From Pseudomonas sp. B21-040 (GTDB lineage: Bacteria > Pseudomonadota > Gammaproteobacteria > Pseudomonadales > Pseudomonadaceae), in contig NZ_CP087176.1 in NCBI RefSeq assembly GCF_024748695.1, positions 1,667,501 through 1,731,500 on the forward strand: 64,000 nt of DNA, read 5' to 3'. This document shows, one piece after another, positions 10,252 to 25,759 of the stretch. The notes beneath the pieces were generated by a model. It saw only the letters and a program-made list of their open reading frames with translations. It was not told the DNA's origin and did not search any database. The stretch's first letter is position 1. The number at the start of each line of letters is the position of its first letter. The position numbers and the translations under genes were made by a program.

Positions 10252-10267
10252 TGGCTCACTTCCTGCA
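10252..10267 (+). promoter_or_regulatory. Candidate sigma-54 promoter for the rfbF glycan operon
   Basis: TGGCTCACTTCCTGCA matches the -24/-12 consensus (TGGCAC-N5-TTGCA) at the invariant GG and GC with the correct 10-bp interval; the -12 half reads CTGCA rather than TTGCA. It lies 137 bp upstream of the rfbF start, leaving a long leader similar in length to the one before the ketoacyl synthase gene. The match is moderate and unsupported by other data. Confidence 0.4.
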
Positions 10268-10404
10268 AGTCCCCCGTATATCGCCATAAATCCTTCACCT
10301 CAAAGGCGTGAAGGCCCCAGTGGCTGCGGGTTAATGATGTGCATCTGACGGTTCGCCAACCCTTGCGGGGGTGGCCAAGCCGCGTGAAGAGCAAGAGGAC
10401 AGCG

Positions 10405-11178
10405 ATGAAGGCAGTAATTCTGGCGGGTGGTCTCGGTACGCGGATCAGCGAAGAGTCGCACCTCAAGCCCAAGCCAATGATCGAAATCGGCGGCAAGCCA
10501 ATTCTTTGGCACATCATGAAACAGTACTCCGCCCACGGGATTCATGACTTCGTGATTTGCCTTGGCTACAAGGGCTACGCGATCAAGGACTTCTTCGCCA
10601 ACTACTTCCTGCACACCTCCGACGTCACCTTCGACATGTGCAACAACCGCATGGACGTTCACCAGAACTACAGCGAACCGTGGCGCGTGACCCTGATCGA
10701 CACCGGCGAAGACACCATGACCGGTGGCCGCCTGCGTCGTGCCGCCCGTTACCTGGAAGGCGAGCAAGCGTTCTGCTTCACCTACGGCGATGGTGTCTCG
10801 GACCTGAACATTGGCGCTTTGGTGGACTTCCACCTGACCCACGGCAAGCTCGCGACCGTGACCGCCGTGCAGCCACCGGGACGCTACGGCGCCCTGGAGC
10901 GTGACGGTGACAGCGTCAAGGGCTTCATTGAAAAACCGCGCGGTGACGGTGGCTGGATCAACGGCGGCTTCTTCGTGCTGTCGCCCAAAGTGCTGCCGTA
11001 CATCGCCGACGATCAAACCTCCTGGGAAGCCGAGCCCTTGGCCGCGCTGGCCAACGAACAACAGTTGCAAGCGTTCCAGCACGATGGCTTCTGGCATCCG
11101 ATGGACACCCTGCGCGACAAAAACCACCTCGAGCATCTGTGGCAGAGCGGGGAGGCCCCATGGAAGCAATGGGACTGA
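10405..11178 (+). CDS. rfbF: Glucose-1-phosphate cytidylyltransferase
   Basis: RfbF makes CDP-glucose from CTP and glucose-1-phosphate, the first step of CDP-deoxysugar synthesis. The 257-aa product equals the usual family length. It shows the nucleotidyltransferase signature MKAVILAGGLGTRISEESHLKPKPM and the metal-binding GDGVSD. The ATG at 10405 has AAGAGGA just upstream and gives the family N-terminus; an upstream in-frame ATG at 10339 would add 22 residues without counterpart. The downstream gene overlaps its 3' end, starting the first of a run of tightly overlapping glycan genes. Confidence 0.95.
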   Translation: MKAVILAGGLGTRISEESHLKPKPMIEIGGKPILWHIMKQYSAHGIHDFVICLGYKGYAIKDFFANYFLHTSDVTFDMCNNRMDVHQNYSEPWRVTLIDTGEDTMTGGRLRRAARYLEGEQAFCFTYGDGVSDLNIGALVDFHLTHGKLATVTAVQPPGRYGALERDGDSVKGFIEKPRGDGGWINGGFFVLSPKVLPYIADDQTSWEAEPLAALANEQQLQAFQHDGFWHPMDTLRDKNHLEHLWQSGEAPWKQWD

Positions 11179-12242
11179 GCCAGGACTTCTGGCGCGGCAA
11201 GCGGGTTCTGCTGACCGGCCATACCGGCTTCAAGGGCAGTTGGCTGACGTTGTGGCTGCAAAGCCTGGGTGCCGAGGTCAGCGGGTTTTCGCTGGACCCG
11301 TCCACCGAGCCCAGCCTGTTTGAACTGGCGCGCGTGCACGAAGGCATCAACGATCAGCGCGGCGACTTGCGCGACTTGGGCGCGTTGCTGGAGCTGATCG
11401 CCGAGACCCAACCGGAAATCGTCCTGCACCTGGCGGCCCAGCCGCTGGTGCGCGAAGGTTATCGTGATCCGCTGGGAACGTACTCCAGCAACGTCATGGG
11501 CACGCTCAATCTGCTCGAAGCGATCCGTCAGGTTGGCGGTGTGCGCGCCTGCGTGCTGGTGACCACCGACAAGGTCTACGCCAATCAGGAATGGGTGTGG
11601 CCGTACCGCGAAAACGAAGCGCTGGGCGGGCATGACCCTTACAGCAGTAGCAAAGCCTGCTGCGAGTTGCTGGCGCAGTCTTACGCGGCTTCGTTCTTCC
11701 CGGCTGAAAAATATGCCGAGCATGGTCTGGCCCTGGCCACGGCCCGTGCCGGCAACGTGTTGGGCGGTGGTGATTTTGCACCGGAGCGTTTGATTCCCGA
11801 TGTGCTCAAGGCCTGGTCCGCTGACGAACCGGTGACCCTGCGCTACCCGCAAGCCGTGCGCCCGTGGCAGCACGCGCTGGAGCCGCTGGCCGGTTACCTG
11901 CAACTGGCGGCCGGCCTCTACGAAAATGGCCCCAAGTTTGCCGGTGCGTGGAACTTCGGCCCGAGTGAAACGGACATGTGCAGCGTCGGCGAAGTCGTCG
12001 AATTGCTCGCCGACCGCTGGCCGCAAGCCCGTGGCTTGCGCATCGAACCGAGTGAATTGCATGAGGCGGGCCTGCTGCGCCTGGACAGCAGCCGCGCACG
12101 TCAACTGTTGGCCTGGCAACCGCGCTGGTCGTTGCAGCAGTGCCTGACCCACACGCTGGACTGGCACCTGGCCTGGCAAAACGGCGACGACATGCGCGCC
12201 ATCACCCTGGCTCAGTTAAACCTGTATCGGGGCGCGTTGTGA
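11160..12242 (+). CDS. rfbG: CDP-glucose 4,6-dehydratase
   Basis: RfbG converts CDP-glucose to CDP-4-keto-6-deoxyglucose. The 360-aa SDR-type enzyme has the NAD-binding motif GHTGFKGSWL near residue 20. The catalytic pair lies in DPYSSSKACCE (Tyr-x-x-x-Lys), preceded by VTTDKVY. The ATG at 11160 overlaps rfbF by 19 bp and follows GGAGG at 11151-11155; an ATG at 11169 is a possible alternative. It forms a pair with rfbF. RfbH, the dehydrase that would lead to 3,6-dideoxy sugars, is absent nearby, so the 4-keto intermediate probably feeds the following epimerase and C-methyltransferase. Confidence 0.94.
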   Translation: MEAMGLSQDFWRGKRVLLTGHTGFKGSWLTLWLQSLGAEVSGFSLDPSTEPSLFELARVHEGINDQRGDLRDLGALLELIAETQPEIVLHLAAQPLVREGYRDPLGTYSSNVMGTLNLLEAIRQVGGVRACVLVTTDKVYANQEWVWPYRENEALGGHDPYSSSKACCELLAQSYAASFFPAEKYAEHGLALATARAGNVLGGGDFAPERLIPDVLKAWSADEPVTLRYPQAVRPWQHALEPLAGYLQLAAGLYENGPKFAGAWNFGPSETDMCSVGEVVELLADRWPQARGLRIEPSELHEAGLLRLDSSRARQLLAWQPRWSLQQCLTHTLDWHLAWQNGDDMRAITLAQLNLYRGAL

Positions 12243-12799
12243 GCGAGTTTCTGTTAAAGCCATTGCCGCTGGCCGGTCTGTTCAGCGTGCAGCACAAACG
12301 CTTCGAGGATGAGCGCGGGCACTTCGCGCGCCTGTTCTGCGAAGGCAGCCTGAGCGCCTTCGGCCAGCCGTTTCATATCCGTCAGATCAACCATTCCTGC
12401 ACCCGCGAGCGGGGCAGTGTGCGAGGCCTGCATTTTCAAAATGCGAGTGCGCCGGAAGCCAAGCTGATCACCTGCCTGCGTGGCGAAGTCTGGGACGTGG
12501 CGGTGGATTTGCGCCCTGATTCCGCGACCTTCCTGCACTGGCATGCCGAGCACTTGCGTGCCGGCGACGGACGCAGCTTGCTGATCCCGGCCGGTTTCGC
12601 CCACGGCTTCCAGACCCTGACTGACGATGCCGAATTGCTCTACCTGCACAGCGCCGATTACACGCCTGCGCATGAGGGTGGTTTGAGTGTGAACGATCCA
12701 CGGCTGGCGATAACCTGGCCGTTGCCTGTCAATAATCTGTCGGCCCGGGATTCCAGCCATCTCTTGCTCGATGAACACTTCGCTGGAGTGCGTGTATGA
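12239..12799 (+). CDS. RmlC/RfbC-like nucleotide-sugar 3,5-epimerase
   Basis: This 186-aa cupin-fold protein belongs to the dTDP-4-dehydrorhamnose 3,5-epimerase family. It carries the catalytic-His segment RGSVRGLHFQN, the strand LIPAGFAHGFQTL and the C-terminal GLSVNDPRLAITWP. Placed after rfbG, it most likely epimerises C-3 and/or C-5 of CDP-4-keto-6-deoxyglucose, not the dTDP sugar; that is inference. The GTG start at 12239 overlaps the rfbG stop by 4 bp (GTGA), the style of junction seen across this operon. Upstream in-frame starts would add residues without similarity to the family. Confidence 0.88.
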   Translation: MSEFLLKPLPLAGLFSVQHKRFEDERGHFARLFCEGSLSAFGQPFHIRQINHSCTRERGSVRGLHFQNASAPEAKLITCLRGEVWDVAVDLRPDSATFLHWHAEHLRAGDGRSLLIPAGFAHGFQTLTDDAELLYLHSADYTPAHEGGLSVNDPRLAITWPLPVNNLSARDSSHLLLDEHFAGVRV

Positions 12800-14022
12800 A
12801 CTGCCGTGGTTGCGGGACTTCCCTGGCCTTGCCGCTGATCGACCTCGGCACCTCGCCGCCGTCAAACGCTTACGTGCGTGCCGATCAACTTGAGCAAGCC
12901 GAGCAATGGGTGCCGCTCAAGGTCGCGGTCTGTCAGCAATGCTGGCTGGTGCAGACCGAGGATTACACCAGCGCCGACAGCCTGTTCGATGCTGAGTACG
13001 CCTACTTCAGTTCGTTCTCCACAACCTGGCTGGCCCATGCCGAGCGTTACGTCGCCGAGATGACTGAGCGCTTCGGCCTGACGGCGGACAGCCGCGTGGT
13101 GGAGATCGCCGCCAACGACGGTTACCTGTTGCAGTACGTCGCCGGTCGCGGCATCCCGTGCCTGGGCGTTGAGCCGACCCGCAGTACCGCGCAAGCGGCG
13201 CGGGAAAAAGGCCTGGAAATTCGTGAACTGTTCTTCGGTCGCGACACCGCATCGCAGCTGGTCAGCGAAGGCTGGTCCGCCGACCTGATGGCCGCCAACA
13301 ACGTGTTGGCCCATGTCCCGGACATCAATGATTTTCTTGGCGGCTTTGCGACCCTGCTCAAGCCGACCGGTGTGGCGACGTTCGAGTTTCCGCAACTGCT
13401 GACGCTGATGGCCGGCCAGCAGTTCGACACGCTCTATCACGAACACTATTCCTACTTGTCACTGACGGCCGTGCAGACCTTGTGCGAGCGCAACGGTCTG
13501 CACGTGTTCGACGTCAGTCAGTTGTCGACCCATGGCGGGTCGCTGCGGGTTTTCGTCCAGCGTGCCGATGGCGTGCGTCGCGACGTGCAGCCAGCGGTTG
13601 CACAGCAACTGCAAGCCGAACTCACCGCCGGGGTGAAAACCGCCGAGTACTACGCGACCCTCGCGCCCGCCGCTGAACGCATCAAGCACGAACTGCTGCG
13701 CTTCCTGTTGCAGGCCAAGGCCGACGGCAAGCGTGTGGTCGGTTATGGCGCCGCCGCCAAGGGCAACACCTTGCTCAATTACGCCGGGGTCAAACCTGAC
13801 TTGCTGGCGTGGGTGGCCGATGCCAACCCGCACAAGCAGGGCAAGTACTTGCCGGGCAGCCGCATTCCGATTGTGTCGCCGGCGCAGATCGATCTTGAAA
13901 AGCCCGATTACGTCCTGGTGCTGCCGTGGAACCTGCTGCACGAAGTCAGTCAGCAACTGGCGCAGGTGCGCCAGTGGGATGGCCGTTTTGTCATCGCCGT
14001 GCCTGAGTTGACCGTCCTGTGA
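12796..14022 (+). CDS. Nucleotide-sugar C-methyltransferase (TylCIII/NovU type)
   Basis: The 408-aa protein has the three parts of sugar C-methyltransferases. An N-terminal zinc site is formed by Cys3, Cys6, Cys46 and Cys49. The SAM-binding core begins near residue 101 (RVVEIAANDGYLL). The C-terminal Rossmann-like domain carries GYGAAAKGNTLLNY near 316 and ADANPHKQGKYLPGS. Family members add a methyl group, usually at C-3, to 4-keto-6-deoxy nucleotide sugars. With RfbF and RfbG upstream, the expected product is a CDP-3-C-methyl-4-keto-6-deoxyhexose. ATGA overlap (4 bp) with the epimerase gene supports the start. Substrate and position of methylation are inferred from context. Confidence 0.9.
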   Translation: MNCRGCGTSLALPLIDLGTSPPSNAYVRADQLEQAEQWVPLKVAVCQQCWLVQTEDYTSADSLFDAEYAYFSSFSTTWLAHAERYVAEMTERFGLTADSRVVEIAANDGYLLQYVAGRGIPCLGVEPTRSTAQAAREKGLEIRELFFGRDTASQLVSEGWSADLMAANNVLAHVPDINDFLGGFATLLKPTGVATFEFPQLLTLMAGQQFDTLYHEHYSYLSLTAVQTLCERNGLHVFDVSQLSTHGGSLRVFVQRADGVRRDVQPAVAQQLQAELTAGVKTAEYYATLAPAAERIKHELLRFLLQAKADGKRVVGYGAAAKGNTLLNYAGVKPDLLAWVADANPHKQGKYLPGSRIPIVSPAQIDLEKPDYVLVLPWNLLHEVSQQLAQVRQWDGRFVIAVPELTVL

Positions 14023-14876
14023 AAGTGCTCGTGACCGGTGCCACCGGGTTTGTCGGCCGCCATGTGGTCCAGGCCTTGCTTGCTCGTGGCTGCGAAGTCC
14101 GCGCCGTGGCGCGCAACGCCGAGACCGCTGCGGATATGTCGTGGATCAATGCGGTGGAGTTCATTGCGGCGGATATTCACGCCCCGACACTGAACATCCA
14201 GGCACTGACCGATGGCGTCGATGCGCTGGTGCATCTGGCGTGGCCGGGCTTGCCGAACTATCAGGCGCTGTTTCACTTCGAGCACAACCTGATGGCCGAT
14301 TACCGGTTCATCAAGGGCGCGGTGGAGGCGGGGATCTCGCAAGTATTGGTCACCGGAACGTGTTTCGAATACGGCCTGCAAAGCGGCCCGCTCAGCGAGC
14401 AAACCGCACCGCAACCCAGCAACCCTTACGGGTTGGCAAAAAATACGCTGCGTGTGTTTTTGCAAAACCTGCAGCAGGCTCAACCGTTCACCCTGCAATG
14501 GGCTCGGTTGTTTTACCTGCATGGCGAGGGGCAAAACCCCAACAGTTTGCTGGCGGCACTGGACCGGGCAATCGATGCCGGTGACGAGCGTTTCAACATG
14601 TCGGCCGGCGAGCAGTTGCGTGATTACCTGGCGATTGAAACCGCTGCCGGTTACCTCGCCGCGATCCTGCAACAGCGCAAATTCGATGGCGTAATCAATT
14701 GCGCCAGCGGCCAGCCGATTTCGGTGCGGGCGCTGGTTGAGCAACGGCTACAGGCGCGTGGTTCATCGATCCGGTTGAACCTCGGTCATTACCCATACCC
14801 GACTCACGAACCGATGGCGTTCTGGGGCGTGACGGACCGTTTGCAACAGCTACTGGGAGCAGAGCATGAGGCATGA
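14019..14876 (+). CDS. NAD-dependent epimerase/dehydratase, likely CDP-4-ketosugar reductase
   Basis: This 285-aa extended SDR has the Rossmann motif GATGFVGRHV at the N-terminus and a Tyr-x-x-x-Lys catalytic pair in NPYGLAKNTL, preceded by TGTCFEYG. Its position right after the C-methyltransferase suggests that it reduces the 4-keto group and finishes the CDP-linked branched 6-deoxyhexose. The GTG at 14019 overlaps the previous stop by 4 bp. A role as a 4-epimerase is also possible; the sequence does not decide. Confidence 0.85.
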   Translation: MKVLVTGATGFVGRHVVQALLARGCEVRAVARNAETAADMSWINAVEFIAADIHAPTLNIQALTDGVDALVHLAWPGLPNYQALFHFEHNLMADYRFIKGAVEAGISQVLVTGTCFEYGLQSGPLSEQTAPQPSNPYGLAKNTLRVFLQNLQQAQPFTLQWARLFYLHGEGQNPNSLLAALDRAIDAGDERFNMSAGEQLRDYLAIETAAGYLAAILQQRKFDGVINCASGQPISVRALVEQRLQARGSSIRLNLGHYPYPTHEPMAFWGVTDRLQQLLGAEHEA

Positions 14877-15936
14877 GTTGTATCGGGTCGCCGACCTGCC
14901 GGTGTTGCAAAACCGCACCTTCGCCGACCCCGCGTCAGCCAGGGCTTCGGCCAGCGCCGACATGCTGCTGGTGCAGGACGAAAAGAGCGGGTTGATCTTC
15001 AATCAGGCCTTTAACGCCAACAAGCTCAGCTACGACGCCGACTATCAGAACGAGCAGGCGCATTCGGGCCAGTTCCAGAAGCACTTGAACGATGTCGAGG
15101 GCATCATTGCCCGCCACTTCAAAGGCCGGGAACTGATCGAAGTCGGTTGCGGCAAGGGCTACTTCCTTGAACTGCTCAAAGGCCTGGGCTACGCCATCAC
15201 CGGCATCGACCCGGCCTATGAAGGCAGCAACGCCGACGTGATCAAGGCTCCGTTCACCCGTGGCCTCGGTCTGGCGGCGGACGCCATCGTGCTGCGCCAT
15301 GTACTGGAACACATTCAGGACCCGGTGAGTTTCCTCGCCGAGATCGCCGACGCCAATCAGGGCGGGCAGATCTACATCGAAGTGCCGTGCTTCGACTGGA
15401 TCCTGGAGCACAAAGCCTGGTTCGACCTGTTCTACGAGCACGTCAATTATTTCCGCCTCGATGACCTGCGCCGGATGTTCGGCACCGTGCACGAGGCCGG
15501 CCATCTTTTCGGTGGCCAGTACCTGTACATCGTTGCAGACCTTGCAACCTTGCGCCTGACCCCGGAACAACCGGTGCCACGCCTGGACCTGCCTGACGGT
15601 TTCACCGCGAGCCTTGAGCGTGCGGTGCAGATTGTTCAAGGCGCGCCGCAGCAAGGTTCGGCGATCTGGGGCGCGTCATCCAAAGGCGTGATCTATTCGC
15701 TGTTCCTGCAACGGGCCGGCGTGGCGGTGGACCGCGTGGTGGATATCAACCCGGCCAAACAGGGCCGGTATCTGCCCCTCAGTGGCGCGCGGGTTTCCTC
15801 ACCGCAAGAGGCCATGGATGCACTGCCCGAAGGCGCCAACCTGTTTGTAATGAATTCCAACTACCTCGAAGAGATCAAGCGGATGACCGGTGGACGCTAC
15901 GTCTATCACGCCGTCGACAGCGCTTCGTTCCAGTGA
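14866..15936 (+). CDS. Class I SAM methyltransferase related to sugar C-methyltransferases
   Basis: The 356-aa protein has a SAM-binding motif (LIEVGCGKGYFLELL, about residues 91-105). Its C-terminal domain parallels the C-methyltransferase two genes upstream: IWGASSKGVIYS near 267 and DINPAKQGRYLPLSG against GYGAAAKGNT and DANPHKQGKYLPGS. Its N-terminal part lines up with the zinc region of that enzyme but carries no Cys-x-x-Cys pairs. It may methylate another position or a different sugar intermediate. The ATG at 14866 overlaps the SDR gene by 11 bp and follows GGGAGC. Confidence 0.82.
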   Translation: MRHELYRVADLPVLQNRTFADPASARASASADMLLVQDEKSGLIFNQAFNANKLSYDADYQNEQAHSGQFQKHLNDVEGIIARHFKGRELIEVGCGKGYFLELLKGLGYAITGIDPAYEGSNADVIKAPFTRGLGLAADAIVLRHVLEHIQDPVSFLAEIADANQGGQIYIEVPCFDWILEHKAWFDLFYEHVNYFRLDDLRRMFGTVHEAGHLFGGQYLYIVADLATLRLTPEQPVPRLDLPDGFTASLERAVQIVQGAPQQGSAIWGASSKGVIYSLFLQRAGVAVDRVVDINPAKQGRYLPLSGARVSSPQEAMDALPEGANLFVMNSNYLEEIKRMTGGRYVYHAVDSASFQ

Positions 15937-16691
15937 CTATTGAGATTAGAAAAATGACTGACAACACCATCAATAAAGCCTTCGAAGCCGAATGCGCAGA
16001 ACAAATCGCCGCTCAGGGCGACGACCAGAAACTCACCGGCCTGGCCCAGGATTTCTTCAATCAGTCGGCCAAGCACAAGTACAGCTACCACTTCTCGTGG
16101 ATGGGCCGTCCGATCATCCAGTTGCCGCAAGACATGATGGCCATGCAGGAAATCATCTGGCAGGTCAAACCAGACCTGGTGATTGAATGCGGCATCGCTC
16201 ACGGCGGTTCGATCATCTACTACGCCTCGTTGCTGGAACTGCAAGGTCACGGCGAAGTGCTGGGCATTGACCTCGACATTCGCCCGCACAACCGCGAAGC
16301 CATCGAAAGCCACCCGATGAGCAAGCGCATCAAGATGATTGAAGGTTCGAGCATCGACGCCGGCATCGCCGCGCAAGTCCGCGCTGCCGCCGAAGGCAAG
16401 AAAGTCATTCTGGTCCTCGATTCCAACCACACCCACGATCACGTGCTCGAAGAGCTGCGCCTGTACGCACCACTGGTGTCGGTGGACAGCTACTGCGTGG
16501 TCATGGACACCGTGGTTGAAGACATGCCGGCCGACTTCTTCCCGGACCGTCCATGGGGCCCGGGCGACAACCCGAAAACCGCGGTATGGAAATACCTGGA
16601 AGAAAACGCTGACTTCGAAATCGACCGTCAGTTGCAGAACAAACTGCTGATCACCGTGGCGCCGGACGGCTACCTGCGTCGCGTTCGTTAA
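15933..16691 (+). CDS. CmcI/cephalosporin-hydroxylase family protein, probable sugar O-methyltransferase
   Basis: This 252-aa protein matches the CmcI family, which despite its name consists largely of SAM-dependent O-methyltransferases (RhlB-like proteins acting on sugars). It has the nucleotide-binding segment LVIECGIAHGGSIIYYASLL, the acidic GIDLDIR and the metal-type motif VLDSNHTHDHV. It probably methylates a hydroxyl of the flagellin glycan or its precursor. The GTG at 15933 overlaps the previous stop by 4 bp; an ATG at 15954 would give 245 residues, and neither has a strong ribosome-binding site. Confidence 0.8.
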   Translation: MTIEIRKMTDNTINKAFEAECAEQIAAQGDDQKLTGLAQDFFNQSAKHKYSYHFSWMGRPIIQLPQDMMAMQEIIWQVKPDLVIECGIAHGGSIIYYASLLELQGHGEVLGIDLDIRPHNREAIESHPMSKRIKMIEGSSIDAGIAAQVRAAAEGKKVILVLDSNHTHDHVLEELRLYAPLVSVDSYCVVMDTVVEDMPADFFPDRPWGPGDNPKTAVWKYLEENADFEIDRQLQNKLLITVAPDGYLRRVR

Positions 16692-16742
16692 TCACTATTG
16701 AAAGTAGGTTCTCGGCGTCTGGCCGGTTGTGGGGATAGAAAT

Positions 16743-19676
16743 ATGCGCGTTCAAAACACTGCTCGAAATGATGTGGCACCGCTGAATGAACGATTGACGG
16801 TGGTGGTGATTTCCCACAACCGCAACGCCTACCTGCGGCGCACCTTGCAGTATTACAGCAGCTATCCCTGCCAGATCCTGGTGCTGGACTCTTCGCTGAA
16901 AATCGACGAGAACATCGCCCGTGATTACCCTATGGTTGATTACCGGCATCTGCCGCAATTCACCTATACCGGGTTGCAGGAAAAACTCGCCTTTGGCGTC
17001 AATCAGGTCACTACACCGTACATGGTGCTGTCGGCCGACGATGATTTCCTGATTCACGACGCGGTGACCGAGTCCCTGGAGTTTCTGGAAGACAACGCCG
17101 ACTACGGCATGTGCCACGGCTACGGGATCATGTACCTGGCGCGCGCCACGCAAGTGGATTATTTCCGCCGTGACCGCAAGGGGCCGGAAGATTACTGCTC
17201 GGATAACGCCGAAGAGCGCCTGATGCAATTCATGGGGCACTTCCTGCCGCCGTTCTACGCGGTCAGCCGTACCGAGTTGCTGCAGGACTGGCACAACACG
17301 TTACTGCCGGGCACCAGCTTCGAGTGGCAGGAAATCGGGCATGCCTATTACATGCTCGCGCGTGCCAAGGCGCGGATCCTGCCGATTCCGTTCGCTGTGC
17401 GGGAAATCACTTACGGTGCCACGGAGCACAACACCAACGTACTGACGGTGTTGACGTTCAAGGACGCCAAAACCGTTGCCGACCGCGAGCGCTTTGCCGA
17501 GTTTCTGGCGTCGCTACCGACCGGTATGAGCCACAAGACTCTGGCTGAGGGCAAGCAGGTTGCGCTGGACAGTTTCGCCACCATGGCTGACTGCCTGAGT
17601 AACACCCGCTCGCTCAAGGGAACGGCCATTTTCAATTCGGCCTGGCATAAAGCCGGCGAAGAGCCGGAGCGTCTGTTTGGTCAACTGCAATTTGTCGAGA
17701 TGCCGTTCTATAACCAGCCGGTTTTCGATCTGCTGACTGAGTTCGAATTCCTTCTGCACACCATGCCTGCCGCCAATTATCAGTTGCAGGAACTGGAAGG
17801 CATTTTGCTCAAACAGCATGAGTTGATGCGCGTTCATCCCAACGACAACGAGCGCACTTTGCGCAGTCGTTTGTGGGAGGCCTTGAGCCTCTATGCGTTC
17901 AACCGCACGGTGGTTTCGCGTCTGGTCGAGTCGCTCAAGGGCACAGAAGAAGCGGAAGAAGGCCTCAAGCTGCAAGCCTGGGCAGACCGTCTGGCGTCGG
18001 TGCCGGCACAGGACGAACAATCGTTGTTCGAAAACATGCCGTCCGGGCGTCTGCTGAACTGGCTGGAGGCTCGCAACCCGGATGCCAAACAGCTCAAAGT
18101 GATTGCGGCGCAGCTGCGCAAACGTAATGGTGGCCCGCAGTTCGGCATCATGCTGTTGGATCTCGATGCGGACATGGTCAAGTTGCAGGCCACCTTCGAC
18201 AGTCTGGCCGGAGGTCACTGCAAGGCGTTCAAAGTCGTGGTGTTCACCACCGGCGATTTGCCGGCGACCACCACGTCGCGTGACACTGTGCACTTCGTCA
18301 AAGTCACGGCCAACAACTACGTCGAACGCCTCAACCAGAGCGTTAACCAGTCCACCGCCGACTGGCTGGTACTGGCCGAGGCTGGTGATCAGTTCACCGC
18401 CAGTGGCCTGCTGCGCGCCAGCCTCGAACTGATGGGTGCCGAAGGCGTTCGTGCGGTGGCGATGGACGAAATCCAGCGCCAGGACAATGGTTCCCTGGCG
18501 GATGTGTTCCGTCCGGGCGTCAATCTTGATCTGCTGCAAACCGTGCCGTCGATGATGGCCCGGCACTGGTTGATCCAGCGTGACGTGTTGGTGGGCGCCG
18601 GTGGCTACTCGGCTGAATACATGTCGGCGCTGGAGTTCGACCTGCTGTTGCGCCTGATCGAAGACGGCGGGCTCGGTGGCCTGGCGCATCTGGCTGAGCC
18701 GCTGCTGATCTGCAATGCACCGTCCGCAGAGGAAAACCCTCACGAGCGTCAAACCCTGACCCGACACCTGACGGCCCGCGGCTACCGCGGTCAAGTCAGC
18801 TCCGAGCTGGCGCAGACCTGGCAGATCGATTACCAGCACAGCGAGCGGCCAAAGGTCTCGATCATCCTGCACAGCCAGGACAATTTGGAGACGCTGCAAC
18901 GCGCCGTGGTCAGCGTGCTGCAACGTACCCGTTACCAGCAGCACGAAATTCTGATCGCCGACAATCACAGTCAGTCCGAAGAACTGGCAGCCTGGCTGTC
19001 CAGCCTGGACGGCAAGAGTGATCGCTTGCGCATATTGCGCACCGGTGAACGTCTGAGCGCCTCGGCGCTGCACAACTTCGCGGTCGCTGAAGCCAAGGGC
19101 AAGTATGTGGTGTTGATGTCGGCCCAGGTTGAAGTGGTCAACTCCAACTGGCTCGACAGTTTGCTGAACCAGGCCCAGCGTCCGGAAGTCGGGATCGTAG
19201 GTGCCAAACTGATGGATTTCCGTGGCGTTACCACGCAAGGCGGTCTGGTGCTGGGCTTCAATGGTGTGGTCGGTTCGATGTTTATCGGTGAGCGCAAAGA
19301 TGCCAAGGGCTACATGAACGGTCACCTGGTCGAGCAGAACTACTCGGCCGTGTCCGGGGCTTGCATGATGATTCGCAAGGATCTGTATGAAGCCGTCGGT
19401 GGGCTGGACGAAGAACATTTCGATGAAGCGTTTGCCGACATCGACCTGTGCCTGAAAGCCGCAGACGCCGGTTACCTGATTGTCTGGTGCCCTCAAGCCC
19501 AGATGCTGCACCCGGGCCTGTTGCCGGATGCACCGCAAACGGCTGCCGCCCTGCAAGACAAGTGGCGCGCACGCTTCACCCAGGATGTGGCGTACAACCA
19601 GAACCTGGCCTTGACCGGCAAGGGCTTTACCCTCGGCGCAGCGTCCAGTGTGAACTGGGCGCAGTTGCTCGCTTAA
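16743..19676 (+). CDS. Large glycosyltransferase with two GT2-type domains
   Basis: This 977-aa protein is probably a flagellin glycosyltransferase (fgt2-like by position and size). An N-terminal domain begins at residue 17 (RLTVVVISHNRNAYL) with an acidic DDD triplet at 99-101. A long middle region follows. A second GT2 domain starts near 702 (RPKVSIILHSQDN) and contains the YLIVW motif. The second domain is clearly similar to the middle GT2 domain of the 1190-aa enzyme (shared QRPEVGxVGAxLM, SAVSxxCxMxRK, DLCLKA). The ATG at 16743 follows GGGGATAG; a TTG at 16698 would add 15 residues. It lies 30 bp before pseB. Confidence 0.85.
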   Translation: MRVQNTARNDVAPLNERLTVVVISHNRNAYLRRTLQYYSSYPCQILVLDSSLKIDENIARDYPMVDYRHLPQFTYTGLQEKLAFGVNQVTTPYMVLSADDDFLIHDAVTESLEFLEDNADYGMCHGYGIMYLARATQVDYFRRDRKGPEDYCSDNAEERLMQFMGHFLPPFYAVSRTELLQDWHNTLLPGTSFEWQEIGHAYYMLARAKARILPIPFAVREITYGATEHNTNVLTVLTFKDAKTVADRERFAEFLASLPTGMSHKTLAEGKQVALDSFATMADCLSNTRSLKGTAIFNSAWHKAGEEPERLFGQLQFVEMPFYNQPVFDLLTEFEFLLHTMPAANYQLQELEGILLKQHELMRVHPNDNERTLRSRLWEALSLYAFNRTVVSRLVESLKGTEEAEEGLKLQAWADRLASVPAQDEQSLFENMPSGRLLNWLEARNPDAKQLKVIAAQLRKRNGGPQFGIMLLDLDADMVKLQATFDSLAGGHCKAFKVVVFTTGDLPATTTSRDTVHFVKVTANNYVERLNQSVNQSTADWLVLAEAGDQFTASGLLRASLELMGAEGVRAVAMDEIQRQDNGSLADVFRPGVNLDLLQTVPSMMARHWLIQRDVLVGAGGYSAEYMSALEFDLLLRLIEDGGLGGLAHLAEPLLICNAPSAEENPHERQTLTRHLTARGYRGQVSSELAQTWQIDYQHSERPKVSIILHSQDNLETLQRAVVSVLQRTRYQQHEILIADNHSQSEELAAWLSSLDGKSDRLRILRTGERLSASALHNFAVAEAKGKYVVLMSAQVEVVNSNWLDSLLNQAQRPEVGIVGAKLMDFRGVTTQGGLVLGFNGVVGSMFIGERKDAKGYMNGHLVEQNYSAVSGACMMIRKDLYEAVGGLDEEHFDEAFADIDLCLKAADAGYLIVWCPQAQMLHPGLLPDAPQTAAALQDKWRARFTQDVAYNQNLALTGKGFTLGAASSVNWAQLLA

Positions 19677-19706
19677 GCCTGGCTGACAGGTACAAGGACT
19701 CAAGGC

Positions 19707-20708
19707 ATGTTTAACGGTAAATCGATTTTCATCTCCGGCGGCACCGGCTCGTTCGGACGCAATTTCATCCGTCGCCTGCTGGAGCAATACCAGCCCAAGC
19801 GCGTCGTCGTGTTCTCGCGCGACGAGCTCAAGCAGTACGAAATGCAGCAGACGTTCAATGCCCCGTGCATGCGCTACTTCCTGGGTGACGTGCGCGACGC
19901 CGACCGTTTGCGCCAGGCCATGCGCGGCATCGATTACGTGGTGCATGCCGCCGCCCTGAAACAAGTGCCGGCAGCCGAGTACAACCCGACCGAGTGCATC
20001 CGCACCAACGTCAACGGCGCAGAAAACATCATCGCCGCAGCGATCGATAACGGCGTGAAAAAAGTCGTGGCGTTGTCCACGGACAAGGCGGCCAGCCCGA
20101 TCAACCTGTACGGCGCGACCAAGTTGCTGTCGGACAAACTGTTCGTTGCGGCCAACAACATTGCCGGCGAACAGCAAACCCGGTTCGCCGTGGTTCGCTA
20201 CGGCAACGTTGCCGGTTCGCGGGGCTCGGTGGTGCCGTTTTTCAGCAAGCTGATCAACGAAGGCGCAACCGAACTGCCGATCACCGATGAGCGCATGACC
20301 CGCTTCTGGATCACCCTGGATCACGGCGTGCAGTTTGTACTCGACAGCTTCGCGCGCATGCACGGTGGTGAAGTGTTCGTGCCGAAGATCCCGTCGATCC
20401 GCATTGTCGATCTGGCGCTGGGCATGGCTGAACACTTGCCGCACAAGCACGTCGGGATTCGACCGGGTGAAAAACTCCACGAGCTGATGGTGCCGCTGGA
20501 CGACGCGCGGATGACCCTGGAATTCGCCGACCACTACACGATTCAGCCATCAGTGCGCTTCACCAGCGTCGATGTGGATTTTGCCGTGGACAAGCTGGGT
20601 GAGCAGGGCAAGCCCGTGAGCGAAGACTTCGAGTACCGCTCTGACACCAATCCACATTTCTTGTCCGTGGGCCAGATCGCTGACCTGCACGCAGAGCTGC
20701 CGGCATGA
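19707..20708 (+). CDS. pseB: UDP-N-acetylglucosamine 4,6-dehydratase (inverting), PseB
   Basis: PseB starts pseudaminic acid synthesis by 4,6-dehydration and C-5 inversion of UDP-GlcNAc. The 333-aa SDR enzyme has SGGTGSFGRNFIRRLL at the N-terminus, STDKAASPINLYGATKLLSDKL with the catalytic Lys and Tyr region, and VRYGNVAGSRGSVVPFF. All are hallmarks of the FlaA1/PseB family, and the length fits. The ATG at 19707 follows CAAGGA. pseC overlaps its stop by 4 bp. With pseC, pseF, pseG and pseI close by, PseB is much more likely than the non-flagellar capsule homologues. Confidence 0.95.
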   Translation: MFNGKSIFISGGTGSFGRNFIRRLLEQYQPKRVVVFSRDELKQYEMQQTFNAPCMRYFLGDVRDADRLRQAMRGIDYVVHAAALKQVPAAEYNPTECIRTNVNGAENIIAAAIDNGVKKVVALSTDKAASPINLYGATKLLSDKLFVAANNIAGEQQTRFAVVRYGNVAGSRGSVVPFFSKLINEGATELPITDERMTRFWITLDHGVQFVLDSFARMHGGEVFVPKIPSIRIVDLALGMAEHLPHKHVGIRPGEKLHELMVPLDDARMTLEFADHYTIQPSVRFTSVDVDFAVDKLGEQGKPVSEDFEYRSDTNPHFLSVGQIADLHAELPA

Positions 20709-21862
20709 TTCCCTACGGTCGGCAAAGCCTCGATCAGGCAGACATCGACGCGGTGGTTGCCGTGTTGCAGTCTGACTGGCTCACGCAAGGGCCGACCATC
20801 GAGCGTTTCGAGCAGGCCATGGCCGAACGTTGCCAGGCCGATTTTGCCGTCGCGGTGTGCAACGCCACAGCGGCGCTGCACATTGCCTGTCTGGCGGCAG
20901 GGCTTGGGCCGGGTGACCGTTTGTGGACCACGCCGAACACCTTTTTGGCCTCGGCCAACTGCGGCCGTTATTGCGGTGCGGAGGTGGATTTCGTCGACAT
21001 TGATCCGCTGACCTGGAACCTTGACACCCACGCCCTGAAAGCGAAGCTGGAAACCGCTGAAGAGAACAATACGCTGCCTAAAGTGCTGGTGGCGGTAGCG
21101 TTCTCGGGTCAAAGCTGTGACATGCGTATGATCGCCGAACTGGCTGAGCGCTACGGTTTTACGGTCATCGAAGACGCTTCCCACGCGGTCGGCGCTTCCT
21201 ACGCCGGGCGCCCGGTGGGCTGTGGTGAGTTTGCCGCCATGACGGTGTTCAGCTTCCATCCGGTCAAGATCATCACCAGTGCCGAAGGTGGCATGGTGCT
21301 GACCAATCGGCCGGAACTGGCCGAACGCTTGCAGCGTCTGCGCAGCCACGGCATGACCCGCGACCCGCAGCATATGACCGAGCCCAGCCACGGCCCCTGG
21401 TATTACCAACAAGTGGAACTGGGCTTCAATTACCGAATCACGGACCTGCAAGCAGCGCTGGGTTTGTCTCAGTTGAGCAAGCTCGACGGGTTTATCGAGC
21501 GTCGTCGTGAACTGGTGGCGCGTTATGAGCGTTTGCTGGCGCACCTGCCGCTGACCTTGCCCGGTATTCAGCCTGAGGCCGAGTCCGCATGGCATCTGTA
21601 CGTCGTTCGCTTGCAGACAGATCGGATCAGTCTCAGCCATCGCCAAGTGTTCGAAGGGTTGCGAGCGGCCGGGGTTGGTGTGAACCTGCACTACATACCC
21701 GTGCATTTGCAGCCGTACTATCGTGACCTTGGATTTGCCGAGGGTGACTTCCCGCAAGCGGAGCGTTATTACGCCGAGGCCATCAGCCTGCCGCTGTTCC
21801 CCTTGCTAAGCGATGAGCAGCAAGATTATGTGGTCGAGCAATTGCGACGATTGACTGAGTAA
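20705..21862 (+). CDS. pseC: UDP-4-amino-4,6-dideoxy-N-acetyl-beta-L-altrosamine transaminase, PseC
   Basis: PseC is the PLP enzyme that aminates the PseB product at C-4. The 385-aa DegT/DnrJ/EryC1-fold protein starts MIPYGRQSLDQADIDAVV, typical of PseC. It has VIEDASHAVGA (cofactor-binding Asp) and the Schiff-base lysine in FSFHPVKIITSAEGGMV. The C-terminal LHYIPVHLQPYY is also typical. ATGA overlap with pseB supports the start at 20705. Confidence 0.95.
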   Translation: MIPYGRQSLDQADIDAVVAVLQSDWLTQGPTIERFEQAMAERCQADFAVAVCNATAALHIACLAAGLGPGDRLWTTPNTFLASANCGRYCGAEVDFVDIDPLTWNLDTHALKAKLETAEENNTLPKVLVAVAFSGQSCDMRMIAELAERYGFTVIEDASHAVGASYAGRPVGCGEFAAMTVFSFHPVKIITSAEGGMVLTNRPELAERLQRLRSHGMTRDPQHMTEPSHGPWYYQQVELGFNYRITDLQAALGLSQLSKLDGFIERRRELVARYERLLAHLPLTLPGIQPEAESAWHLYVVRLQTDRISLSHRQVFEGLRAAGVGVNLHYIPVHLQPYYRDLGFAEGDFPQAERYYAEAISLPLFPLLSDEQQDYVVEQLRRLTE

Positions 21863-21893
21863 ACACTGCGAAAGCGGCTGATGAGAATGTGTG

Positions 21894-22514
21894 ATGCGTG
21901 GACTGACCGAGCAGGAAAAATTCTGGCAGGGCGATTTTGGTAACCAGTACGTTGACCGCAACGTCGGGCAGCCGCTGGTGGCGGCTAACCTGGCGCTGTT
22001 TGCCAAGGCACTGACCCGGGCCGGGCGGATCGACAGCCTGGTGGAGTTGGGCACCAATGCCGGCAACAATTTGCAGGCGCTGCGTCAACTGTTGCCCCGG
22101 TGCGAGCTGTTTGGTGTGGAGATCAATGCCAGCGCCTGCACCCAGGCCCAGGCGTTGGACATTGCGCAGATCTGGCATGGATCGCTGTTCGACTTCCCCC
22201 GGACACGCCGCTATGACCTGACCTTGAGCAAGGGCGTGCTGATTCACTTGGCGCCCGAGCTGCTGTCCGCCGCCTATGCACAGTTGTATGAACTGAGCGA
22301 GCGTTACATCCTGATCGCGGAGTACTACAACCCGGCACCGGTGGAGGTGTCTTATCGCGGCAACAGCGGCAAGCTGTTCAAGCGCGATTTCGCCGGTGAA
22401 ATGCTTGATCGCTACAGCGACCTGCAATTGCTCGACTACGGTTTTGGCTATCATCGCGACCCGCAATTCCCGGTGGATGACATCACTTGGTTTCTTCTGG
22501 AAAAACGTCCTTGA
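21894..22514 (+). CDS. Pseudaminic acid biosynthesis-associated methylase
   Basis: This 206-aa SAM-dependent methyltransferase fits the family named for its repeated occurrence in pseudaminic acid clusters (TIGR03587). Supporting segments are GLTEQEKFWQGDFGNQYVDRN at the start, SAM motif LVELGTNAGNNLQAL, and SKGVLIHLAPELL. Its substrate is not known from the sequence; it may methylate the Pse precursor, an acyl substituent or the finished sugar. The ATG at 21894 is chosen over a GTG one codon earlier. It lies between pseC and pseF and overlaps pseF by 4 bp. Confidence 0.85.
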   Translation: MRGLTEQEKFWQGDFGNQYVDRNVGQPLVAANLALFAKALTRAGRIDSLVELGTNAGNNLQALRQLLPRCELFGVEINASACTQAQALDIAQIWHGSLFDFPRTRRYDLTLSKGVLIHLAPELLSAAYAQLYELSERYILIAEYYNPAPVEVSYRGNSGKLFKRDFAGEMLDRYSDLQLLDYGFGYHRDPQFPVDDITWFLLEKRP

Positions 22515-23212
22515 ACAGCGTCGCGATCATCCCGGCCCGAGGCGGCAGCAAGCGTATCCCGCGCAAGAACCTCAAGCCGTTCGATGGCGTTCCGATGATT
22601 GCCCGCTCGATTCAAACCGCGCTCGATTCCGGTTTGTTCACTCAAGTCGTGGTCAGCACTGACGACGAGGAGATTGCCGAGCTGGCCCTGGCGTGCGGCG
22701 CTCAGGTGCCATTCATGCGGCCCGCAGAACTGGCTGATGACTACACCGGCACGGCGGCGGTGATTGCTCATGCCTTGCAAGCGTTACAGGGCCTGGATTT
22801 TGATTTTGCCTGTTGCATCTACGCCACTGCGCCACTGCTGCAAGCCCGGTTTTTGCAACAAGGGCTGGCGCTTCTGCAGCAGCACCCGGCCAAGTCTTTC
22901 GCGTTTTCGGTGTGCGATTTCGGTTTCCCGGTACAGCGTGCTTTAACCGTCGACGACCAAGGGGCCTTGACCGCGTTGTACCCAGAGTTTCGCAACGCCC
23001 GTTCCCAGGACTTGCCGCCGGCCTATCAGGACGCCGGCCAGTTCTACTGGGGCCGCCGCGAGGCATGGTTGCGGGGCGACACCTTGTACTCGCCACAAAG
23101 CCTGCCGGTGATTCTGCCACGCTATCTGGTGCAGGACATCGACACCCCTGAAGACTGGAAACGCGCCGAATATTTGTACGCCGCGTTGAAAGCCGGCGGT
23201 GAATTGCAATGA
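22511..23212 (+). CDS. pseF: Pseudaminic acid cytidylyltransferase, PseF
   Basis: PseF activates pseudaminic acid with CTP to give CMP-Pse, the donor for transfer to flagellin. The 233-aa product has the CMP-sialate synthetase signature AIIPARGGSKRIPRKNLK right after the start, and DDEEIAELA. The start is taken as TTG at 22511 because it gives the conserved N-terminus and a 4-bp TTGA overlap with the methylase stop. An earlier TTG at 22487 would add eight residues. pseG overlaps the 3' end by 4 bp. Confidence 0.92.
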   Translation: MNSVAIIPARGGSKRIPRKNLKPFDGVPMIARSIQTALDSGLFTQVVVSTDDEEIAELALACGAQVPFMRPAELADDYTGTAAVIAHALQALQGLDFDFACCIYATAPLLQARFLQQGLALLQQHPAKSFAFSVCDFGFPVQRALTVDDQGALTALYPEFRNARSQDLPPAYQDAGQFYWGRREAWLRGDTLYSPQSLPVILPRYLVQDIDTPEDWKRAEYLYAALKAGGELQ

Positions 23213-24714
23213 GAGTGCTGATTCGTTCCGACGCCTCGCCGACTATTGGCAGCGGGCATATCGCCCGTTTGTTGCCACTGGCCAGAACCTTGCGCAAGCA
23301 AGGGGTGTACGTGGCGTTTGCGTGCCGGCGGCTGCCGGGACATCGGTTGGACATGCTGGCTGGCGAAGGCTTCGAAACCTTTGCGCTGCCCGATCGTTAT
23401 CCCGATGAAGACCCGCAGCAAGCCATCGAGTCCATGCTGCCGTGGCAGGCCGACATCGACGCGTTGGCGCAGGCACTGGAAAACCAGGCGGTATTCGACT
23501 GGATCGTCGTCGATCACTATGGCCTCGACCATCACTGGCAGCGCGCAGCACGGCGCTGGGCGCCCCGGATTGCGGCCGTGGATGACCTCGCGACGCGCAC
23601 CTACGATGTCGATCTGCTGCTCAATCAAAACCTGTCCGGTACACCTGAGGCTTACGCCTCGCTGCTATCGCCCGGTTGCCAGGCCTTGCTCGGCCCACGG
23701 TTTGCGATGCTGCGCGAAGAATTCAGCTGCCCGGCCATCGAGATCAAACCGCAGGCCAAACGCGTGCTGGTGAACTTCGGTGGTTTCGATGCCGCCATGC
23801 AGACTCACCATGCGATGTTGGCGCTGACGGATTTCCATGACTTGGAAGTCGATTTTGTTGCCGGTGCCGATAACCCGGCCTGGGAGCCAATGCAGGCGCT
23901 GGCGGCCAAGCGTCCGAACTGGCGATTGCACAGTTTCGTCCGCGACTTCTATCGGTTGATGACCGAAGCGGACCTGTTTATCGGAGCCGGTGGCGGCACC
24001 AGTTGGGAGCGGGCGGCCCTGGGGCTCCCGACGATTTGCATTGCCGTGTCGAATAATCAGCAGGCCAACGGCGAGGTGATGGCGACGGCGGGCGCCCATG
24101 TCTATCTGGGGCCTCGCGAGCAGGTCAGCGTTGAACAGTTGCGTCAGGCCATTGGCTTTGTCGCTGGCAATCAGGGGCTGCGCCAGAGTCTCGCGCAACA
24201 TTCCCGGCAACTGGTCGATGGCCGGGGCGCGCAACGCGTGGCTGCCGCATTGGCCGGTGCTGTTTTGCAGATGCGCCCGGCGACACCGGCCGATGCCCGG
24301 TTGCTGTTCGAGGGGCGCAATGCCGAGGCCGTGCGACGCTGGTCGCTGGAGACCGGGGTCATCGACTGGCAATCGCATCAAAACTGGCTGACCGCCAGCT
24401 TGAGCAACGCCCAGCGCTTGTTGTTGATCGCCGAGGCGGATGACGGCCCGGTGGGTGTGCTGCGATATGACCGGCGCGGCGTTGAAGCCGAAGTTTCGAT
24501 TTATCTGTTTGAAGGCCGTTTCGGGCTGGGCTGGGGCAGGGCGCTGCTGGCGCGGGGCGAAACGTTTGTGAAGGCCCACTGGCCGCAATTGCAGGTGATT
24601 ACCGCCCAGGTAGTGCCGACCAATCAGCCGTCGCTGAAAGTCTTTCGCGAAGCCGGTTTTACCCAGAGTGCCTGCGCGTTTACGCGCGTATTGAAGGATC
24701 ACTGCAATGACTAG
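23209..24714 (+). CDS. pseG: PseG hydrolase fused to a C-terminal GNAT acetyltransferase (PseG-PseH-like)
   Basis: Residues 1 to about 350 are the PseG UDP-sugar hydrolase, which removes UDP from UDP-2,4-diacetamido-trideoxy-altropyranose. It begins MRVLIRSDASPTIGSGHIAR with the likely catalytic His17, and has GAGGGTSWERAALGLPTI. From residue 355 (MRPATPADARLLFEGRN) to 495 runs a GNAT acyltransferase domain (GLGWGRALLARGE, VVPTNQPSLKVFREAGF). This is the position and fold of PseH, which acylates the C-4 amine one step before PseG. No separate pseH is seen, so the fusion probably supplies both activities. ATGA overlaps pseF. Confidence 0.92.
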   Translation: MRVLIRSDASPTIGSGHIARLLPLARTLRKQGVYVAFACRRLPGHRLDMLAGEGFETFALPDRYPDEDPQQAIESMLPWQADIDALAQALENQAVFDWIVVDHYGLDHHWQRAARRWAPRIAAVDDLATRTYDVDLLLNQNLSGTPEAYASLLSPGCQALLGPRFAMLREEFSCPAIEIKPQAKRVLVNFGGFDAAMQTHHAMLALTDFHDLEVDFVAGADNPAWEPMQALAAKRPNWRLHSFVRDFYRLMTEADLFIGAGGGTSWERAALGLPTICIAVSNNQQANGEVMATAGAHVYLGPREQVSVEQLRQAIGFVAGNQGLRQSLAQHSRQLVDGRGAQRVAAALAGAVLQMRPATPADARLLFEGRNAEAVRRWSLETGVIDWQSHQNWLTASLSNAQRLLLIAEADDGPVGVLRYDRRGVEAEVSIYLFEGRFGLGWGRALLARGETFVKAHWPQLQVITAQVVPTNQPSLKVFREAGFTQSACAFTRVLKDHCND

Positions 24715-25759
24715 TTTCAAGATCGGCAACCGCTTGATCGGTGCGGATGCGCCACCCTTCATCATCGCTGAGATGAGTGGTAACCATAACCAGTCGCTGG
24801 ACATGGCCTTACGCATCGTCGAAGCGGCGGCCAAGGCCGGCGCCCATGCCTTGAAACTGCAAACCTACACCGCTGAAACCATGACCCTGGATTTATCGGA
24901 AGGCGAGTTCTTCATCAAGGATCCAAACAGCCTGTGGGCTGGTTCTTCGTTGTATGCGTTGTACGAGAAGGCGCATACGCCGTGGGAATGGCATGCGCCG
25001 ATTTTCGCCCGGGCCAAAGAGCTGGGGATGCTGGCCTTCTCCACGCCGTTTGATGACACCGCCGTCGACTTCCTTGAAAGCCTCGATGTGCCAGCGTACA
25101 AAATCGCCAGTTTTGAAAACACTGACCTGCCGCTGATTCGCCGGGTGGCCGCCACTGGCAAGCCATTGATCATCTCCACCGGCATGGCCAGCATCGCCGA
25201 GCTCGATGAAACCGTGCGTGCCGCCCGCGAGGCCGGTTGCAAGGACCTGATTCTGCTCAAGTGCACCAGCACGTATCCGGCGACACCGGCCAACAGCAAC
25301 GTGCGCACGATTCCTCATCTGCGCGAATTGTTCGGTTGCCAGATCGGTTTGTCCGATCACTCCATGGGTGTCGGGGTGTCCGTGGCGGCGGTGGCGCTGG
25401 GGGCGACAGTGGTGGAGAAACATTTCACCCTCGACCGCGCGGCCGGTGGCGTAGACGCGAGTTTCTCGCTGGAACCGGCCGAACTCGAAAGCCTGGTGAT
25501 CGAAACGGAACGCGCCTGGCAGGCGATGGGGCAGGTGCATTACGGCGTGACTGACGCCGAGCGCAAATCGCTGGTGTACCGCCGATCGCTGTATGTCACC
25601 CAGGACATGGCCGCCGGCGAGCCATTCACCACAGCCAACCTGCGAGCCATCCGTCCTGGCCTGGGGCTGGCCCCCAAACACGCTGAAACCCTTCTGGGCC
25701 GCCGCGCCCGCCACGCCATCACGCGTGGAACCCCGCTGGATTGGTCGCTGGTCGAATAA
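24707..25759 (+). CDS. pseI: Pseudaminic acid synthase, PseI
   Basis: PseI condenses the PseG product with phosphoenolpyruvate to form pseudaminic acid. The 350-aa product has the NeuB/PseI barrel (PPFIIAEMSGNHNQSLDMAL, LKLQTYTAETMT, STGMASIAELDE, GLSDHSMGVGVSVAAVALGA) and the C-terminal antifreeze-like SAF domain at about 285-350 (RSLYVTQDMAAGEPFTTANLRAIRPG). The EMSGNH form is typical of PseI; NeuB and LegI usually have EIGxNH. The ATG at 24707 overlaps pseG by 8 bp. It is the last gene of the run that begins at rfbF. Confidence 0.95.
   Translation: MTSFKIGNRLIGADAPPFIIAEMSGNHNQSLDMALRIVEAAAKAGAHALKLQTYTAETMTLDLSEGEFFIKDPNSLWAGSSLYALYEKAHTPWEWHAPIFARAKELGMLAFSTPFDDTAVDFLESLDVPAYKIASFENTDLPLIRRVAATGKPLIISTGMASIAELDETVRAAREAGCKDLILLKCTSTYPATPANSNVRTIPHLRELFGCQIGLSDHSMGVGVSVAAVALGATVVEKHFTLDRAAGGVDASFSLEPAELESLVIETERAWQAMGQVHYGVTDAERKSLVYRRSLYVTQDMAAGEPFTTANLRAIRPGLGLAPKHAETLLGRRARHAITRGTPLDWSLVE

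Follow-up and report, generated by a model that had tools for sequence, protein, structure and literature searches.

Between the flagellar genes flgL and fliC, the genome of a soil-type Pseudomonas carries the parts of two activated-sugar routes. The DNA discussed here, called the window, is a 64,000-nt stretch (G000:C1:1667501-1731500) of a single-contig genome of 6.75 Mb. The island that it holds is real, conserved and modular, and it is made of parts of known kinds. Judged by its genes, there is a good probability that it is a P. syringae-type flagellin O-glycosylation island with two inserted donor-sugar cassettes, one for a cytidine diphosphate (CDP)-linked sugar and one for pseudaminic acid (Pse), in which case the flagellin FliC would bear rhamnose, a 3-C-methylated 6-deoxyhexose and pseudaminic acid. 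A preliminary description of this DNA had proposed two such routes for one flagellin: their presence in one flagellar island is borne out by gene content and place, and their service to a single flagellin is probable. The same description took the combination to be unusual for the genus, and suggested looking for the gene set in other flagellar loci. Many Pseudomonas loci share the order of these genes, so the arrangement goes beyond chance, and rarity is ruled out by genus-wide counts. Among 398 Pseudomonas genomes spread over the genus (the window's own included), the sugar C-methyltransferase gene and pseI lie 7,979-12,000 bases apart in 90, with a median of 11.3 kb (11,956 bases in the window). 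The C-methyltransferase (E <= 1e-100) occurs in 122 of these genomes, at 74% identity or more in 114 and at 53-55% in 8, and PseI occurs in 141. Both are found in 102 genomes (odds ratio 31, a figure that ignores relatedness), which leaves 20 C-methyltransferase carriers without PseI.

The island and its recurrence

All genes from flgL to fliC lie on the + strand of the window:

4172..5737, +, FlgL, left island border, second Flagellin_N match of the genome; flgK/flgL order kept in related loci
5831..9403, +, Fgt1-like glycosyltransferase, 1190 aa, with several glycosyltransferase domains (PF00535, PF13524)
10405..11178, +, RfbF, glucose-1-phosphate cytidylyltransferase (TIGR02623, 460 bits, cut-off 300)
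11160..12242, +, RfbG, CDP-glucose 4,6-dehydratase (TIGR02622, 478 bits, cut-off 278; YSSSK as its YxxxK motif)
12239..12799, +, RmlC-like protein, putative CDP-4-keto-6-deoxyhexose 3- or 3,5-epimerase (PF00908, 189 bits; aligns to RmlC 1dzr and NovW 2c0z)
12796..14022, +, sugar 3-C-methyltransferase of the TylC3/TcaB9 family (PF08421, PF13489 and PF08484; aligns to solved 3-C-methyltransferases)
14019..14876, +, extended short-chain dehydrogenase/reductase (SDR), proposed 4-ketoreductase (PF01370; YGLAK motif)
14866..15936, +, second methyltransferase, MT2 (PF13489, partial PF08484)
15933..16691, +, CmcI/rhamnosyl O-methyltransferase family protein (PF04989, 314 bits)
16698..19676, +, Fgt2-like glycosyltransferase, 992 aa (TIGR04440 domain, 121 bits, cut-off 70, plus GT2 PF00535)
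19707..20708, +, PseB (TIGR03589, 569 bits, cut-off 408)
20705..21862, +, PseC (TIGR03588, 568 bits, cut-off 424)
21891..22514, +, pseudaminic acid-associated methylase (TIGR03587, 331 bits, cut-off 112)
22487..23212, +, PseF, CMP-Pse synthetase (TIGR03584, 333 bits, cut-off 206)
23209..24714, +, PseG (TIGR03590, 304 bits for this half, cut-off 154) fused to a PseH-like GNAT acetyltransferase (PF13302)
24707..25759, +, PseI (TIGR03586, 497 bits, cut-off 340)
25989..26915, +, KASIII-like protein of the P. syringae island type (PF08541/PF08545); its open reading frame (ORF) opens at 25842, with the likely start near 25989
27012..28304, +, Maf/PseD-like (MptE-like) protein, proposed flagellin nonulosonate transferase (PF01973, 116 bits)
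28825..29676, +, FliC, right island border (PF00669, PF00700), sole Flagellin_N match of the genome besides flgL

The order first described, RfbF-RfbG, RmlC-like protein, C-methyltransferase and reductase followed by the Pse genes, holds throughout in open frames, and within each cassette adjacent genes share 4 to 28 bases or leave gaps of 28 bases at most, with ORF starts taken as listed. That description passed over MT2, the CmcI-type O-methyltransferase, the 992-aa glycosyltransferase and the Pse-associated methylase, and its bounds left out the 1190-aa glycosyltransferase, the KASIII and the Maf-like genes. The RmlC-like protein is so named because it falls just below the RmlC equivalog model for dTDP-rhamnose (149.8 vs. 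155.75 bits); like the PseH-like and Maf-like proteins, it scores below its specific model and is assigned by Pfam domains and context. RfbH, which would open a 3,6-dideoxyhexose branch, is not represented over its cut-off in the NCBIfam matches listed for the 14 proteins of RfbF through PseI (cassette proteins only; no genome-wide search was made), where its model matches only PseC, at 143 bits for a cut-off of 423.

Three islands with P. syringae-type flagellins match the window only in flgK-flgL-fgt1-fgt2-KASIII-fliC-flaG. In one of these genomes, the computed flagellin masses equal the values published for strain Pta 6605 within 1 Da (PMC3927599), and its Fgt1-position protein is 57% identical, over the full length, to the Fgt1-like protein of the window. 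The Fgt2-like protein is 51-52% identical to the Fgt2-position proteins of the three islands, and KASIII reaches about 90% over 307-312 residues, counted from residue 45 of its long ORF. Since only these backbone genes are shared, the window island can be read as a P. syringae backbone with three insertions. Between fgt1 and fgt2 comes the CDP cassette; the Pse cassette separates fgt2 from KASIII, and Maf separates KASIII from fliC. These parts come and go separately. The CDP cassette is present at L044, L048 and L049 in genomes that have neither PseI nor Maf, and L042 combines it with Maf, its PseB and PseI being located about 200 kb from there. L050, L051 and L058 show no match to the Fgt1/Fgt2-like genes; at L050, a TPR-GT41 (OGT-like) protein is encoded between flgL and the CDP cassette (L050:4746-7613).

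Conservation was followed in a set of loci formed by the best 80 of at least 584 C-methyltransferase relatives, 54 from Pseudomonas or Pseudomonadales and 26 from other bacteria, so that the non-Pseudomonas loci stand for a small part of those that exist. In the sequence fetched around the C-methyltransferase, all 80 loci also have the RmlC-like gene, 79 have RfbG and 78 RfbF. Of the 54 loci, 47 have FlgL upstream and 7 run out of contig or of 10-kb flank before that point; PseC is within reach in 45. The closest named relatives of the C-methyltransferase among the matches listed, at 97% identity, are strains of Pseudomonas arsenicoxydans, mucoides, mandelii and brassicacearum.

Between the Fgt1-like gene and rfbF, the window contains 1 kb without a clear gene (9404-10404). 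An imperfect inverted repeat lies in it (arms 9454-9530 and 10125-10201, 77% complementary), flanking runs of TTGCCG/TTGCTT hexamers, and the region is perhaps a small mobile or REP-like element. At the equivalent spot, L010 has two RTX-repeat genes.

The predicted CDP-linked sugar and the exchange of its last step

The C-methyltransferase aligns over its full length with the D-mycarose 3-C-methyltransferase 4rv9 (E 7e-69) and with TcaB9, 3ndi (E 8e-68), and its zinc-binding, S-adenosylmethionine and C-terminal domains are all there. From these identities we infer a route in which RfbF and RfbG would provide CDP-4-keto-6-deoxyglucose, the RmlC-like protein would epimerise it adjacent to the ketone, the TylC3-type enzyme would place a methyl group on C3, and the SDR would then reduce C4 to yield a CDP-3-C-methyl-6-deoxyhexose. 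MT2 and CmcI may add further methyl groups to this product: as additional methyltransferases sit in the cassette, the sugar may also bear O-methyl groups. The "virenose- or evalose-like" sugar first suggested is therefore one possibility, as sequence alone does not show from which face reduction occurs, whether the epimerase acts at C3, C5 or both, or which carbon is methylated, C3 being what the family suggests.

It is unlikely that the CDP sugar is instead a simple O-methylated or non-branched deoxyhexose, with the TylC3-type enzyme acting on another position or another intermediate, as the Y-x-E-H and H-[VI]-P segments, which we take to be catalytic in 3-C-methyltransferases, align with those of the enzymes of known structure. 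The family placement comes from homology at about 235 bits, which leaves some room for such a sugar. So does strain B728a, whose flagellin is reported to bear a 160-Da "methylated deoxyhexose" (PMC3927599), while the two genomes nearest to it by flagellin mass, G240 (2 of the 6 values) and G142 (1 of 6), are not among the C-methyltransferase carriers. Because both have only fgt1-fgt2-KASIII between flgL and fliC, 160 Da alone is no proof of C-methylation. Derivation of the B728a residue from a CDP cassette is likewise unsupported, since no fetched flagellin fits the published set (29,178; 7,385; 1,319; 1,123; 945; 1,426), in a comparison that did not include B728a itself and left out a few loci without a flagellin frame for the start string used (e.g., L098, L103, L105). 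A 3-C-methylated sugar is thus the reading retained here.

The gene that follows the C-methyltransferase is exchanged from locus to locus. It encodes the SDR in 36 of the 54 Pseudomonas or Pseudomonadales loci, a DegT-type aminotransferase in 15 and a divergent SDR in 3 (L050, L051 and L058, 30-32% identity), and SDR and aminotransferase never occur together. MT2 is confined to cassettes of the SDR type (30/36), and a hexapeptide acyltransferase accompanies 14 of the 15 aminotransferases, as at L014:11224-13007 where the pair replaces the SDR (and MT2). Both modules would fit the C4 ketone left by RfbG, giving an alcohol in one case and, in the other, an amine open to acylation by the hexapeptide protein, and the aminotransferase loci thereby predict a 4-amino branched sugar. 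At L055, which has a divergent cassette, a PhyH-family dioxygenase gene follows the aminotransferase gene (L055:12348-13205).

The two modules have switched at least 11 times on the RfbG tree and at least 9 times on the FlgL tree, as compared with 4 on the RfbF tree, 9 on the RmlC-like tree, 3 on the C-methyltransferase tree and 1 on the CmcI tree. These last four, like the Fgt1/Fgt2-like and PseC trees, were built by a faster method, without L047 and L055. How many swaps took place is uncertain, but against the flagellar gene they were more than a few. For the Fgt2-like protein, 4 switches are counted on the N-terminal part (shuffles, 9-13), 6 on the middle and 8 on the C-terminal part; PseC gives 10 (shuffles 9-13), and the Fgt1-like tree gives 7 (shuffles 7-10), no better than shuffled. 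Rightward of the module the signal thus fades with distance, as expected from linkage (CmcI 1, then 4, 6, 8 and 10), and leftward there is no even fading (C-methyltransferase 3, RmlC-like 9, RfbF 4).

How would these sugars reach the flagellin? For Fgt1 of Pta 6605, transfer of rhamnose onto serine has been reported (PMC3927599). The Fgt1-like enzyme of the window would probably do the same, and a single rmlA over the cut-off, at 4.84 Mb in the same genome, suggests that dTDP-rhamnose is available. The branched sugar would then be added by the Fgt2-like enzyme or by one domain of either Fgt-like protein. Several observations weigh against this scheme and against the assignment of all three sugars to FliC. 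Apart from the Fgt-like pair, no transferase comes with the CDP cassette, and co-segregation cannot decide whether the Fgt2-like protein transfers the CDP sugar, as linkage to its neighbours can explain the N-terminal signal. Of the six serines glycosylated in Pta, just S176 is kept as Ser in the FliC of the window; position 194 is Thr and the other four are Gly, Ala, Asn and Ala, so the sites must differ. Two specific models are also missed: the Maf-like protein scores 36 bits against the PseD model (cut-off 670), and the PseH half 41 bits against TIGR03585 (cut-off 93), its label resting on the fusion to PseG and on the GNAT Pfam domain. Outside Pseudomonas, finally, the RfbF-RfbG-RmlC-C-methyltransferase core is found mostly away from flagellin, with a FliC match in the fetched stretch of only 2 of the 26 loci (L076 and L080).

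This last point, together with the CDP cassettes that exist without Pse and Maf (L044, L048, L049), would suit two routes with different acceptors, Pse going to FliC via Maf and the CDP sugar to O-antigen or another surface polymer, its genes merely located in the flagellar locus. We consider this quite improbable: in Pseudomonas the cassette sits between fgt1- and fgt2-like genes in a flagellar cluster, and fliC follows it at a distance of a few kb in L044, L048, L049, L050, L051 and L058, with no Pse genes between. Attachment of both sugars to FliC, in one glycan or at separate sites, is accordingly the reading followed below.

The pseudaminic acid route and the probable loss of PseB

PseB, PseC, PseH, PseG, PseI and PseF would together produce CMP-pseudaminic acid. 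The set had been called complete: PseB, PseC, PseF, PseG and PseI are all over their cut-offs, and PseH is represented by the low-scoring GNAT half fused to PseG. The Maf-like protein would attach the product to Ser or Thr of FliC, whose residues 131-215 include 22 Ser/Thr. Homologues were searched by similarity to the Maf-like protein of the window (E 1e-20) in the 48 genomes reached via 48 of the 54 Pseudomonas or Pseudomonadales loci. PseI and Maf are both present in 42, both absent in 5, and PseI is alone in 1 (G044), so Maf is found in 42/43 PseI-positive genomes vs. 0/5 PseI-negative ones. The Maf match is in two pieces in 2 of the 42 (G018 and G028, the genomes of L021 and L034), where the gene may be broken. 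At L016:18066-19864, the island has divergent nonulosonate genes (PseI 54% and PseF about 50% identical to the window), perhaps for another nonulosonic acid.

The nonulosonate may conceivably be a methylated or otherwise acylated derivative rather than plain pseudaminic acid, a tentative alternative suggested by the TIGR03587 methylase within the Pse run, by a PseH half so far under its cut-off, and by KASIII, to which vioS in the P. syringae mVio island is related (PMC3927599). Many PseC-bearing islands show no methylase match, which makes the methylase a decoration, and KASIII is found too in islands without Pse genes. Plain pseudaminic acid is kept here as the expected product.

The first enzyme of its pathway may have been lost repeatedly. 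Among the 43 PseI-positive genomes of the 48, 11 hold no PseB over the cut-off, all candidates having been scored, and a second PseB-like gene lies elsewhere in 11/11 of these vs. 3/32 of the PseB-bearing ones. A PseB paralogue was rejected for four of the five such genes fetched (L145-L148 were scanned, L149 was left out): the FnlA model fits them best, at 565-676 bits (under its cut-off of 730), as compared with 322-334 for the PseB model. In L148, the gene is adjoined downstream by a WbcJ-type reductase over its cut-off, of a family named for UDP-2-acetamido-2,6-beta-L-arabino-hexul-4-ose. In the 398-genome set, PseB is missing in 28 of the 141 PseI-positive genomes. A gene in the FnlA score band is found in 28/28 of these, in 2/113 PseI-positive genomes with PseB and in 83/257 without PseI, the five best candidates per genome having been scored and the class taken from the score band, with a model scan of four genes as its check in the overlapping 48-genome set. 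The two sets are not independent, as identical coordinates recur in them. The FlgL tree implies 9 changes in the presence of PseB; in about 7 of 8 independent pairs FnlA shifts in the opposite sense, and in none in the same (median p 0.016 by sign test). The RfbG tree gives 8 changes and 5 pairs, about 4.4 opposite and none the same, too few to reach 0.05. This test omitted L051, whose PseI is not in the island. At L005:16860-17120, in P. mandelii 6A1, some 35 codons of the pseB start are fused in frame to pseC, a remnant that points to gene loss; L006:16870-17010 and L008:16870-17010 retain only a short stretch in which 4 of 8 residues agree with the beginning of pseB, a weak likeness. PseB is present in the genome of the window itself, which has no FnlA-band gene, its next match scoring 171 bits.

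Because PseB and FnlA exclude each other and FnlA-type enzymes reportedly make the product of PseB, FnlA probably feeds PseC in trans; that is, an O-antigen route would probably feed the flagellar Pse route in PseB-less genomes. Against such a supply, FnlA-type enzymes go on to C3 epimerisation, which may limit the amount of free intermediate shared with PseC, and a third factor could drive the exclusion. WbjB, FnlA and CapE are named as one enzyme in different species (PMC5774825). There is a precedent for sharing between O-antigen and flagellin in PAK, whose flagellin glycosylation requires the O-antigen enzyme WbpO according to the title of a paper cited in PMC3958885.

Significance and relation to known systems

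Flagellin is recognised by plants and phages, and the decoration proposed here, predicted for over a fifth of the sampled Pseudomonas species (90/398), supplies definite masses to seek on it: by calculation, 160.07 Da for a C-methyl-deoxyhexose residue, 174.09 or 188.10 Da once it bears one or two O-methyl groups, 316.13 Da for Pse5Ac7Ac, 330.14 Da for its methylated form and 146.06 Da for rhamnose. We see even chances that Pseudomonas flagellins carry an undescribed kind of sugar, a CDP-derived C-methyl-branched 6-deoxyhexose (4-amino and N-acylated in some species), together with pseudaminic acid, and that PseB has repeatedly been lost as the O-antigen FnlA makes the same intermediate, the two glycans thus sharing a branch point. 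The exclusion bears on a general question, whether surface-glycan routes share intermediates so closely that one of them drops its own first step. A review that tabulates known structures (PMC3958885) does not list the predicted decoration for P. aeruginosa or P. syringae. No report was found in the open full-text literature of CDP and Pse routes combined in a Pseudomonas flagellar island, or of FnlA replacing PseB; most subscription papers lay outside this search, which makes it weak evidence of novelty, and both appear undescribed within the literature searched.

The individual parts are familiar. In available descriptions, the Pse flagellin systems of Helicobacter, Campylobacter and Aeromonas have a PseB-C-F-G/H-I set and a Maf-like gene by fliC, as in the window; here, PseG is fused to a PseH-like domain and the route is joined with a CDP route and Fgt-type transferases. 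Pse genes plus Maf are thus features held in common with these systems. The TylC3/TcaB9-type C-methylation of antibiotic sugars relies on enzymes with the same domain set and aligned segments, and differs in its donor, which in the window is CDP-linked as judged by gene context. Mycarose-type routes also involve a 2-deoxygenation, a step missing from the route proposed here. The pathways proposed for virenose in PMC3539893 similarly combine a 4-keto-6-deoxyhexose, a 3-C-methyltransferase and a 4-ketoreductase, but they use GDP or TDP rather than CDP, and their product belongs to lipopolysaccharide. Closest of all is the flagellin glycosylation island of P. syringae, found in the same place and the same order with homologous Fgt1, Fgt2 and KASIII. 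Unlike the window, the three islands of this type that were compared show matches neither to the CDP and Pse cassettes nor to Maf, and the viosamine genes of Pta 6605 form a separate island (PMC3927599).

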